Shown: in pieces, positions 3,113 to 31,851 of the stretch | How the letters are laid out: every line of letters begins with the position of its first letter | How positions within the stretch are numbered: the stretch's first letter is position 1 | Assembly (NCBI GenBank): GCA_034189135.1 | Contig: JAXHVO010000008.1 | Coordinates: 1-32,849 of the forward strand | DNA length: 32,849 nt | Direction: 5' to 3' | Source of the DNA: Thermodesulfobacteriota bacterium | GTDB taxonomy: Bacteria; Desulfobacterota; Desulfobacteria; Desulfobacterales; JAUWMJ01 | Program-made: the position numbers and the translations under genes | The notes under the pieces: model-generated | Told to the model about the DNA's origin: nothing | Seen by the model: only the letters and a program-made list of their open reading frames with translations | Database searches by the model: none

Positions 3113-3218
3113 TATAGTGGTTGTCAAAAAAACGTTCCGTTATCGAAACGTTTTTTTCTACAACCACTTATACCGCAATTCCATATATCGGTACATATTT
3201 ATGGCAAGCGGTATAAAG
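3113..3218. repeat. 106-bp double-hairpin repeat, copy A
   Basis: Hairpin 1 is built from AGTGGTTGT (3116-3124) with ACAACCACT (3160-3168) and, inside, AAAAAAACGTT (3126-3136) with AACGTTTTTTT (3147-3157). Hairpin 2 is TTATACCGC (3168-3176) with GCGGTATAA (3208-3216). An equal-length copy lies at 31746-31851, with 97 of 106 positions identical by eye and no indels. The first hairpin carries T runs on both strands and begins 20 bases after the AOR stop, so here it may act as a terminator. A short open frame runs through both copies but is explained by the repeat. Confidence 0.85.
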
Positions 3219-6653: not shown

Positions 6654-6779
6654 AAATAGTTGGAGAGTATTATTCATTTGTTCTTATAAAACAGGTCAAA
6701 AAAAGCTTTTGGGGAATGCGTTTTTATTGTTTGCCATCAATTTTCATGCCCAACTGGCACAACGATGCATGAAACCTAA

Positions 6780-7019
6780 GGTTTGTCCGGGGAATCGCCG
6801 GTTTGCCCGGTACCAGACTTTACAATCTTATTTAGAAGTGAACGTACGGCAGCTATCTCGCTGAGATTAAATTTGAACCAGCCCCAAGGGGCAGAATCCC
6901 ACGGCGGCGTTGATCGTCTCTGTCTGTATCGGTTTCACTGAGAAGATAGGGGGCGTGTTCGATACCGATCTCATTTGTTAAGTCTGGTACCGGGCAAACC
7001 GGCGATTCCCGGACAAACC
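6780..7019 (-). repeat. Stem-and-core element, copy 1 (candidate structured RNA/DNA)
   Basis: Terminal arms 6780-6825 and 6975-7019 are reverse complements over 45 bp, with one bulged G and one mismatch. Between them lies a 117-nt core at 6842-6958 that matches the reverse complement of 14454-14570 at 107 of 117 positions without indels. The 16-nt spacers between arms and core are not conserved. On the minus strand the core can form ATCTC-AGC-GAGAT and a CUUG-capped GCCC/GGGC hairpin, and contains GGTTCAAAT, like a T-loop. The minus strand is favoured because the two base changes in these hairpins in copy 2 become G-U pairs only in that sense. No open frame of note. It fills most of the 471-base gap 6654-7124; the rest shows nothing. 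Confidence 0.85.
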
Positions 7020-7124
7020 GAACTAAGATTGAAAAACGAATTTTTGTTTCTAATGAATATATTCTGTTTCAAACCGGATGATCTGAATGCGGTTTTTAAC
7101 CTTAAACCAGGATAAAGGTGAGCC

Positions 7125-13218: not shown

Positions 13219-14361
13219 TTGAAAGTATTAATCCTTGGCGCCGGTTTGGTGGGGGGTCCCATGGCAATCGATTTAGCCAAAGATGCGGAATTCAATGTAA
13301 CCCTTGCCGATATAAATAGCGATTCTTTGAATAAAATTGGTGCGAAACACAATATATCCACCATTCAAAAGGATCTGTCGGATTCAACCAGTATACCGGA
13401 AATGGCTAAAGATTTTGATATGGTTTTAAATGCCATGCCCGGGTTCATGGGATACAGCACCTTAAAAGCGATCATTGAATCGGGTAAAGACGTGGTAGAT
13501 ATTGCCTTTTCCCCGGAAGATCCCTTTACCCTGGATGAACTTGCTAAAAAAAATAGTGTGACCGCGATAATGGACTGCGGTGTAGCGCCGGGAATGAGCA
13601 ATGTACTGATCGGATATGTTGATCATTTATTGGATAAAACAGAAACGGCATTGATTTACGTGGGTGGGCTGCCTGAGGTTCGGGAATGGCCCTATGAATA
13701 TAAAGCCGTTTTTTCACCCATCGATGTGATCGAAGAATATACACGTCCAGCTCGTTATGTTGAAAATGGAAACTTAGTTGTTCGTCCGGCATTATCGGAT
13801 GCTGAATATTTGGACTTTCCCCAAATAGGAACCTTGGAAGCGTTTAACAGTGATGGTTTGCGCACCCTGGCCAAAACCATCGATGCGGCAAATATGAAGG
13901 AGAAAACCCTGCGTTATCCCGGTCATGTTGAAAAAATGGCGGTTTTAAGGGAAACCGGATTTTTTAATAAAGAAGAAATAGATATAAAAGGTACAAGAAT
14001 TTCACCCCTGGAGTTTACCGCAAAATTATTATTTCCCCAATGGCAGTTAAAGGAGGGAGAATCTGATATTACGGTAATGAGAGTAATCGTTGAAGGAACC
14101 AAAGATGGTGAAAAATTAAGATATACCTATGATCTGTTTGATCGACTGGATAAGGAAACAAACACACATTCCATGGCAAGAACCACCGGATATACGGCAA
14201 CCATGGCAATAAGAATGCTCGCCAAAGGACTGTATCCCCAAAAAGGTATATCTCCCCCGGAATTTATTGGAAGAAAACCGGAGTGTGTCAGGTTTATATT
14301 AAAAGGATTGGAAGATCGTGGTATATTTTATAAGGAAAGTATAGAAAGCTTAACTACTTGA
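13219..14361 (+). CDS. Saccharopine dehydrogenase-family enzyme, L-lysine 6-dehydrogenase-like
   Basis: 380 residues with an N-terminal Rossmann fold (GAGLVGG 7-13, acidic LADIN at ~35 suggesting NAD(H)) and the saccharopine dehydrogenase C-terminal domain. The middle blocks YVGGLPEVREWPYEYK, FSPIDVIEEYTRPAR, GTLEAFNSDGLRTL and TLRYPGHVEKM resemble lysine 6-dehydrogenase and lysine-ketoglutarate reductase relatives. It should act on an amino acid in the cytoplasm; the substrate is inferred. The start is TTG at 13219, chosen because AAAGGAGT lies six bases upstream and the Rossmann motif starts at once. It stands alone, but an amino acid ABC transporter lies convergently downstream beyond the copy-2 element. 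Confidence 0.85.
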   Translation: MKVLILGAGLVGGPMAIDLAKDAEFNVTLADINSDSLNKIGAKHNISTIQKDLSDSTSIPEMAKDFDMVLNAMPGFMGYSTLKAIIESGKDVVDIAFSPEDPFTLDELAKKNSVTAIMDCGVAPGMSNVLIGYVDHLLDKTETALIYVGGLPEVREWPYEYKAVFSPIDVIEEYTRPARYVENGNLVVRPALSDAEYLDFPQIGTLEAFNSDGLRTLAKTIDAANMKEKTLRYPGHVEKMAVLRETGFFNKEEIDIKGTRISPLEFTAKLLFPQWQLKEGESDITVMRVIVEGTKDGEKLRYTYDLFDRLDKETNTHSMARTTGYTATMAIRMLAKGLYPQKGISPPEFIGRKPECVRFILKGLEDRGIFYKESIESLTT

Positions 14362-14390
14362 GGGGTCGGGGAGCTTTTCAATCTCTACTC

Positions 14391-14631
14391 GGTTCGTCCG
14401 GAGAAGTGCCCATTTGCCCGCATCAGCCTTAACAAATAAGTCCGGCACTCTGTACACGCCCCCTATCTTCTCAGTTAAATCCATACAGGCAGAGACGATC
14501 AACGCTGCCGTGGGGTTCTGTCCCTTGGGGCTGGTTCAAATCGAATCTTAGCGAGATAGCTGCCGTACGTCAGTTTCTTGAAATCATTGTTAAGGCTGAT
14601 ACGGGCAAATGGGCACTTCTCCGGACGAACC
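14391..14631 (+). repeat. Stem-and-core element, copy 2 (candidate structured RNA/DNA)
   Basis: Arms 14391-14435 and 14587-14631 are reverse complements at 44 of 45 positions. The core 14454-14570 is the inverted counterpart of 6842-6958 (about 91% identical). Compared with copy 1, both arms differ at about eight matched positions, and one base is missing from both arms at the same level, so the pairing survives. On the plus strand the core can form ATCTT-AGC-GAGAT and GTCC-CTTG-GGGC, both with a U-G pair where copy 1 has C-G. It occupies most of the 345-base gap 14362-14706 between convergent genes. No clear target-site duplication flanks either copy. Confidence 0.85.
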
Positions 14632-14706
14632 ACTAACAACCATTAAAGCGCAATGGGTTCACAGGAAAGGCCATTAATGAGAAACTCCTCGTGAGTCCTA
14701 AGCTTA

Positions 14707-21316: not shown

Positions 21317-21668
21317 ATTATAACTCAAGTTTCGCACCCCGGTTTGGCGGAAAGCAATGCCCTGACGGCACGTAACATATAAAATCAGATGTGAATCGAA
21401 ACGGTTATATTTTTTTCTGTAAGGGGATATGTGGGTCATCTATTACCCCTTTTCGCCGTGTCCGGATATTTGGGATAGACCGTCCCTTTTATATTGTTTA
21501 GCAACGGATAGACTTTATCCCAAATATCCGGACACGCTGCAACTGATTCAATTCATATCCCCTGGAAGAAAATAATGTAACCGTTTCGATTCACACCTTC
21601 AACACCAATCTGCGCTTTAAGAATTCCATATTCACCGTAGATAGGGGATGCGAAACTTGAGTTATAAT
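21317..21668. repeat. Triple nested inverted-repeat element
   Basis: Three concentric inverted repeats fill the gap between two same-strand genes. Outer: a perfect 20-bp ATTATAACTCAAGTTTCGCA at 21317-21336 against 21649-21668, continuing imperfectly. Middle: ~40 bases at 21390-21430 against 21554-21595, including TGTGAATCGAAACGGTTA and GGGGATATG. Inner: a perfect 20-bp GTGTCCGGATATTTGGGATA at 21458-21477 against 21516-21535. There is no open frame of note. It resembles a MITE or several palindromes inserted into each other. Confidence 0.85.
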
Positions 21669-31745: not shown

Positions 31746-31851
31746 TATAGTGGTTGTCAAAAAAACGTTCCGCTCTCTAAACGTTTTTTTCTACAACCAC
31801 ATATACCGCAATTCCATATTTCGGAACTTATTTATGAAAAGCGGTATAAAG
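31746..31851. repeat. 106-bp double-hairpin repeat, copy B
   Basis: Same length and structure as 3113-3218: a GTGGTTGT/ACAACCAC stem with inner AAAAAAACGTT/AACGTTTTTTT, then TATACCGC (31802-31809) with GCGGTATA (31841-31848). All nine differences lie in the loops or next to the stems; the stem bases proper are unchanged. Here it lies between the divergent Nudix and toxin genes, where no terminator is needed, which argues that it is a mobile or structural repeat. The rest of the gap to 32035 shows nothing else. Confidence 0.85.

Follow-up and report, generated by a model that had tools for sequence, protein, structure and literature searches.

Foldback transposons carry long inverted repeats around a middle domain, an arrangement also seen in the element described here, and HEARO and omega RNA elements place a structured RNA with a pseudoknot inside a mobile element, some copies of which have no gene. 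The attC sites have palindromic arms of variable sequence, another feature that recurs here. Prokaryotic MITEs, for example QMITE2 of Coxiella, are described in the review PMC10969869 as elements of less than 500 bp with terminal repeats that are mostly intergenic, are present in many copies and have no internal transposase, all of which holds for the present element; the direct repeats described in that review are found here in only one of two subfamilies (subfamily 2). REPINs and BIMEs, with which PMC3116915 and PMC2817692 deal, are high-copy extragenic palindromes, as is the element reported here.

We analysed a stretch of 32,849 nucleotides from a Thermodesulfobacteriota genome (the window), for which the initial annotation had proposed two copies of an arm-core-arm block, one at 6780-7019 and the other, inverted, at 14391-14631. 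Both copies are indeed at these places. Their cores are identical at 107 of 117 positions, as had been claimed (best ungapped 117-mer, starting at 6842), and the whole blocks are identical at 197 of 238 aligned positions. The claim that the two arms of each copy match each other was also borne out, with pairing at 44 of 45 positions in both copies; a repeat finder detected inverted repeats in both, 36 nt long at 97% in one case and 45 nt long at 98% in the other, which, judged from their length, are far outside chance. Between the two copies, the left arms agree at 36 of 45 positions and the right arms at 36 of 44. The ends of the element, however, are not at 6780 and 7019 or at 14391 and 14631: conserved outer ends extend about 30-70 bp more on each side, and the 240-bp block is the interior of a larger mobile element (Table 1). 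It is true that the arms vary more than the core, but the difference is modest inside one genome and extreme only between bacterial families. Mean between-copy identity of arm versus mid-core was 0.828 versus 0.883 in subfamily 1, 0.808 versus 0.837 in subfamily 2, and 0.814 versus 0.904 in the congener G001.

Table 1. Features of the two window copies; percentages of cells paired refer to the alignment of 83 cores.
Feature	Position	Strand	Remarks
Copy 1 outer end type A (long)	6735..6779	+	Also conserved next to an arm in other members of subfamily 1, to the left or to the right of the block
Copy 1 left arm (P1, 5' strand)	6780..6825	+	Pairs with 6975-7019, 44/45
Copy 1 conserved core	6842..6958	+ (sense as read on +)	107/117 versus copy 2; 97 genome matches
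Copy 1 helix P2, 5' side	6844..6848	+	Pairs with 6954-6958; 86.7% of cells paired; both-side changes at two outer pairs; weaker in 20 later copies
Copy 1 helix P3, 5' side GCAG	6849..6852	+	Pairs with 6920-6923; 97.3% of cells paired; compensatory changes at two pairs
Copy 1 helix P4, 5' side CCCC	6882..6885	+	Partner 6950-6953; crosses P3; almost no variation, 98.8% of cells paired
Copy 1 hairpin P5, tentative	6901..6917	+	ACG 6901-6903 with CGT 6915-6917; 70.4% of cells paired; poor in 20 later copies
Copy 1 helix P3, 3' side CTGT	6920..6923	+	One G-U in copy 1
Copy 1 P4 3' side GGGG (6950-6953) and P2 3' side (6954-6958)	6950..6958	+	From the sequence and the helices of the 83-core alignment
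Copy 1 right arm (P1, 3' strand)	6975..7019	+	Inverted repeat with left arm
Copy 1 outer end type B (short)	7020..7061	+	Conserved in subfamily 1; no target duplication found
Copy 2 outer end type C	14360..14390	-	Terminal repeat GAGGGGTCGGGGAGCTTTTC (+ strand reading), 14360-14379
Copy 2 arm	14391..14435	-	98% complementary to 14587-14631
Copy 2 conserved core	14455..14570	- (sense on -)	107/117 versus copy 1
Copy 2 arm	14587..14631	-	From the repeat finder
Copy 2 outer end type D (long), decayed terminal repeat	14632..14697	-	Resembles D ends of other subfamily-2 copies

The outer ends define two subfamilies. Window copy 1 belongs to subfamily 1, with outer ends A and B. Window copy 2 belongs to subfamily 2, in which end C is short and end D long; each of these two ends starts with GAGGGGTCGGGGAGTTT or with a decayed version of this repeat. 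Exact, AT-rich direct repeats of 7-10 bp adjoin 26 of the 55 subfamily-2 copies from G000 and G001 in which both terminal repeats were readable; 21 of the remaining copies have no direct repeat of at least 3 bp and 8 have one of 3-4 bp. When pairs were swapped between different copies as a control, repeats of at least 7 bp were seen in about 1%. These exact flanking duplications are the mark of a transposon. No target duplication was found in subfamily 1, whose ends differ from those of subfamily 2 and have indistinct boundaries. Intact subfamily-2 copies span about 325-350 bp from terminal repeat to terminal repeat, under the limit of 500 bp, and window copy 2, at 338 bp, is too short to hold a transposase. 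In length, terminal inverted repeats and flanking direct repeats subfamily 2 agrees with prokaryotic MITEs, a known transposase aside. The initial annotation had named a transposon or MITE family with conserved termini as what would speak against its reading, and this applies in part: conserved terminal repeats and target duplications are present in the subfamily of copy 2, while subfamily 1 is without duplications.

No transposase or autonomous partner was recognised at the four extra terminal-repeat sites of the genome, which resemble truncated or rearranged copies (open reading frames were listed for two of them). Nor was an autonomous partner recognised in 20 stretches from relatives, of which the terminal-repeat positions and five short sequences were inspected. 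No insertion shared with congeners was seen among the 30 longest matches of more than 350 bp; two of these matches fall in flanks, and there the insertions differ, in one case by lying on the other side of the gene and in the other by subfamily and distance. The same terminal repeats bound small elements that have another interior or are coreless in other genomes, for example L292 and L307. At L292 300-576 and L296 297-572 (G211) these terminal repeats enclose a different interior, in elements about 276 bp long, with a AATTAATT duplication at L292, and L307 222-377 (G002) is a coreless copy which, by eye, has kept the outer ends and both arms as a near-perfect arm hairpin with a 3-nt loop. A short terminal-repeat family, CTGTTTCTCATAAATATATTCCGTTTTAAA, is present at 49 places in G000, where several inverted pairs lie about 180 bp apart, and it resembles the outer ends of some subfamily-1 copies.

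There are 97 core matches, some of them partial, in this 4.6-Mb genome; fewer are present in some sulfate-reducing relatives and their kin, and the five other genomes that were counted have 9 to 25 each. Searches with the core gave matches in 5 of 96 relatives, in 14 of 389 genomes of the order (seven family codes), in 23 of 389 genomes of a class sample, some as single weak hits, and in 7 of 395 genomes of a phylum sample, four of them outside the order; each of these counts includes the genome of the window, and the samples overlap. Among the 80 listed of 102 core-bearing stretches, most are labelled Desulfobacterales, Desulfobacteraceae or Deltaproteobacteria, and one is labelled a Smithellaceae MAG. 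The core pattern was also seen at L187 284-359, in a MAG labelled Spirochaetes, which may represent a transfer or a misbinned contig. None of the viral contigs searched held the exact core pattern.

According to a crude ORF finder, 2 of the 88 copies placed in this genome are inside an ORF and 6 are at edges; all others lie between two ORFs, which are in tandem for 43 copies, convergent for 28 and divergent for 9. The background ORF pairs in 30 loci, which include the element-flanking pairs, numbered 43 tandem, 12 convergent and 7 divergent. By the same crude finder, 34 of 132 copies in other genomes were inside ORFs. The genes on either side of copy 1 encode an NAD-dependent DNA ligase and an acylphosphatase, and those on either side of copy 2 a saccharopine dehydrogenase and an ABC transporter; all four are ordinary neighbours. 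No sigma-70-like promoter was found at copy 1. A bias in transcription strand (30:13 or 29:14 in this genome) was set aside, as it was not repeated elsewhere (16:22). The window also contains a second repeat family, at 3113-3218 and 31746-31851, whose members are 92% alike and form a long AT-rich hairpin; seemingly the same repeat interrupts the core of L117 and, in L083 and L116, lies within the outer end. A further long inverted repeat at 21387-21598, with 45-nt arms at 87% and a 122-nt loop, adjoins a FecR-domain gene.

The arm-core-arm block is found in both orientations relative to the outer ends, at a ratio of about 1:1. With all cores read in one sense, the order of the outer ends in this genome was AB in 18 copies and BA in 16, and CD in 25 and DC in 22; elsewhere the two orders numbered 10 and 6 in the congener G001 and 1 and 0 in G002, and by eye both were present in families f4 and f30. 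The orientation counts and the first count of arm mismatches are based on 105 copies, seven of which lacked a clean pair of ends and three of the assigned ones being weak; dropped beforehand were copies with a score below 80, those at most 200 bases from the end of a locus, and 12 individually named copies that were truncated, interrupted or distant. The minimum number of orientation changes on trees was 13 in subfamily 1, 10 in subfamily 2 and 3 in G001, against shuffled means of 11.5, 15.8 and 5.0, so that orientation is unclustered in subfamily 1 and partly clustered in the other two groups.

Arm identity averages 0.92-0.93 within copies and 0.81-0.83 between them. Over 213 copies the median paired arm length is 40 bp (less than 22 bp in 12 copies) and the outer arm ends vary; greedy clustering yields 34 arm classes, in which no fixed crossover sequence is visible. 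Arm mismatches read on the core strand comprised 78 G-T and 101 A-C in a first cut, and in a second cut the ratio of G-T to A-C was 43:43 in this genome and 71:91 in others, so that neither cut shows the excess of G-T over A-C expected of a G-U bias. Excerpts of PMC8604942 report that in yeast template switching between inverted repeats homogenises the arms and inverts the spacers. Since arm homogenisation and core inversion are known products of this process, and since there is no G-U bias, variable but paired arms do not by themselves imply selection on RNA pairing. The mirrored arm changes from which such selection had first been argued are real, in that arms are alike within copies, but they are not decisive. 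Template switching or arm recombination would be the simplest cause of both the likeness of the arms and the inversion of the core. According to the same excerpts of PMC8604942, the spacers that became inverted were short ones and switching was more frequent when the spacer was short, whereas the spacer here is about 150 nt. By eye, the arms of different families have a loose motif, approximately GGGnATnGSC midway along the arm and RCAAnAA at its inner end.

These properties of the arms bear on the possibility that the element is a plain foldback MITE, inside which no fold is selected, the core being kept by ancestry or as protein-binding DNA and the arms being paired purely by template switching. 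The unbiased arm mismatches, the agreement of arm likeness and core inversion with the process in the extracts of PMC8604942, and the small difference between core and arm conservation within one genome all fit this explanation, as does the coreless G002 copy, L307, with its near-perfect arm hairpin. Copies with the lowest-scoring cores likewise still have arms that are about 0.90-0.91 alike (0.94-0.95 in those with the highest-scoring cores). Between families, however, most of the arms inspected differ in sequence yet pair (L321 and L323 have no clear arms), and the core between them retains its fixed blocks, its motifs and their spacing, which argues against this explanation.

In the fold proposed for the core, helix P3 (GGCA/TGCC) crosses helix P4 (CCCC/GGGG); helix P2 closes the structure, and P5 is added as a tentative hairpin. 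The pseudoknot was found by reading distant cores by eye, and the first scoring, on 63 cores, is hence not independent. These 63 of 131 parsed cores, from 19 genomes, were taken by similarity with per-genome limits, and cores with a replaced P3 hairpin are under-represented among them; 85.4% of their cells pair, and the covariation score is 0.149 versus 0.085 shuffled. A set of 83 cores (19 genomes of the phylum) was made by adding 20 copies fetched once the structure was fixed, which test the structure more fairly, although variants already seen in their genomes had in part guided the choice of these. In these later copies the four P3 pairs hold in 17, 20, 18 and 19 of 20, P4 is mostly kept, and AU-to-GC changes appear at one more P3 pair, in two genomes that belong to different families; of the weaker helices, the A-T pair of P2 holds in 12 of 20 and the C-G pair of P5 in 8 of 20.

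In the 83 cores the whole structure has a covariation score of 0.188 versus 0.108 shuffled. For P3 and P4 together, 98.0% of cells pair versus 94.6% shuffled, 17 cells have double changes versus 1.8±1.2, and covariation is 0.121 versus 0.057±0.005, each value being reached by 0 of 500 shuffles, and slid versions score at most 0.050. The mirrored P3 changes, at two positions and in three genomes, are AU to GC in 6 cells (G222, G524), GC to CG in 9 (G428, G524) and GC to AU in 1 (G222). The two measures that the scoring tool rates as least inflated by relatedness gave a less uniform picture. For the whole structure in 83 cores the number of double-change pairs was reached by 109 of 500 shuffles and that of pair types by 140 of 500; the corresponding figures were 53 and 13 of 500 for the whole structure in 63 cores, and 21 and 22 of 500 for P3 and P4 only in 83 cores. 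The alignments show compensatory base changes at P3, with P2 and P5 weaker and the relatedness controls mixed.

On the core strand G-T pairs are more frequent than A-C mismatches (46 versus 26 pair-by-genome cases, p 0.024; 46 versus 18 once two mostly unpaired columns are removed), but no such strand preference is seen for P3 and P4 by themselves (10 G-T and 8 A-C cells). A nested RNA fold was rejected, as RNAalifold finds none (covariation term -0.05 with 29 cores and -3.7 kcal/mol with 87 cores), and a mutual-information scan of the cores returned no helix. A coding core was also rejected, one-base length changes between lineages arguing against a conserved reading frame. In all 10 rows of one starred subfamily-1 clade a hairpin is in place of part of the 5' side of P3, which indicates that amplification does not strictly require P3 in the form drawn, although the tree included those columns. 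A GTCTGCCTGAGGCAGAC-type hairpin replaces part of the P3 5' side in 16 copies checked (L011, L013, L015, L019, L026 and others), and the 3' half of this hairpin contains a GGCAG or GGCGG that could serve as a substitute; in L385 (G222) a hairpin of this type follows the P3 5' side, at the same spot in a different family.

The proposal of a structured RNA or folded ssDNA in the initial annotation is supported by these results, mainly through crossing core helices with compensatory changes that are mostly kept in the later copies, and not through the argument from the arms. We lean, with modest confidence, towards a non-autonomous MITE-like element with a conserved folded and pseudoknotted module, probably transcribed, whose core is selected as a folded single strand. 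The module would consist of a palindromic stem, P1, of about 40-45 bp closing a core of about 117 nt in which P3 crosses P4, with closing P2 and tentative P5. Judging from the terminal repeats and, in one subfamily, the target duplications, the outer ends would be moved in trans by putative transposases, and template switching or arm recombination, both products of which are seen, may keep the arms alike while their sequence drifts and may flip the core. The folded single strand under selection is most likely an RNA transcribed in the core sense, and the module most probably binds a putative protein in trans; a possible role for the module, at a guess, could be to help the element persist or spread.

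The covariation at P3 and P4, the fold kept in later copies and the G-T excess on the core strand argue for a folded core. We count against the preferred reading that the relatedness-robust measures of the whole structure are unexceptional, that P4 is nearly invariant and that P2 and P5 are weak; further points against it are the RNAalifold and mutual-information nulls, the lack of a sigma-70-like site at copy 1, of a recognised transposase at the extra terminal-repeat sites and of a duplication in subfamily 1, the inconsistent orientation to neighbour genes, the clade with a replaced P3, and the length of the spacer beside the short ones in the excerpts of PMC8604942. The unexceptional whole-structure counts of pairs and pair types would also be expected of a plain foldback MITE; the mirrored changes of P3 would not, and overall we consider that explanation unlikely.

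A folded ssDNA substrate, in which the core-sense strand folds and is acted on by a recombinase or a replication protein in the manner of attC, is quite improbable: a G-T tolerance limited to one strand is as compatible with ssDNA as with RNA, and the arms are highly palindromic DNA in an element that is mobile, but terminal repeats with 8-bp-type duplications are a sign of double-strand transposition, and crossing helices are more usual in RNA than in ssDNA. An invertible switch, in which the neighbours would be controlled by a site-specific recombinase that turns the core around between its arms, is very improbable, for although the near 1:1 orientations in each subfamily and the loose arm motif seen by eye across families are in its favour, the arm classes display no fixed crossover sequence, the inversion fits a passive process too, and there is no consistent relation to neighbouring genes.

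If the element is a MITE-like carrier of a selected fold, as we favour, it would be a small bacterial transposon linked to a conserved fold of such age that several families of the phylum have it, and, if transcribed, it would found a new family of RNAs, for which a protein partner is likely. It may also offer a natural case of arm homogenisation and loop inversion acting together, and it warns that paired-but-variable arms alone are no proof of RNA selection. A broader proposal, which we advance tentatively and think rather doubtful, is that mobile structured RNAs (or folded ssDNAs) of a class not described before have spread across Desulfobacterota, with a pseudoknotted core on a drifting stem, unrelated transposon ends and a putative trans-acting protein needed for spread, in which the fold, rather than the orientation or the stem sequence, would be the heritable trait.

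The statement that the core is not a known riboswitch or ncRNA agrees with Rfam 15, in which the window has 0 matches at the gathering score. There were likewise 0 matches for 12 related loci and 0 for five loci with distant copies at values up to E 1, and window copy 1, at up to E 10, returned only STnc390, with 17.2 bits against a threshold of 50. HEARO was presumably among the Rfam models searched. Literature searches brought up no paper recognised as a description of this element, and the folded core in a flipping module is new to the literature and databases searched. Unlike in foldback transposons, the long inverted repeats are internal here, and separate outer terminal repeats exist. 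Compared with HEARO and omega RNA, the present element is without an Rfam match, has terminal repeats and target duplications, and has a free core orientation, and in contrast to attC its conserved part is the loop and not the ends. Set against REPINs and BIMEs, it is much larger and has a conserved core and target duplications. It differs from the MITEs of PMC10969869 in that its interior is a flipping arm-core-arm module, the core of which persists across families with mirrored pair changes while the arms are replaced.
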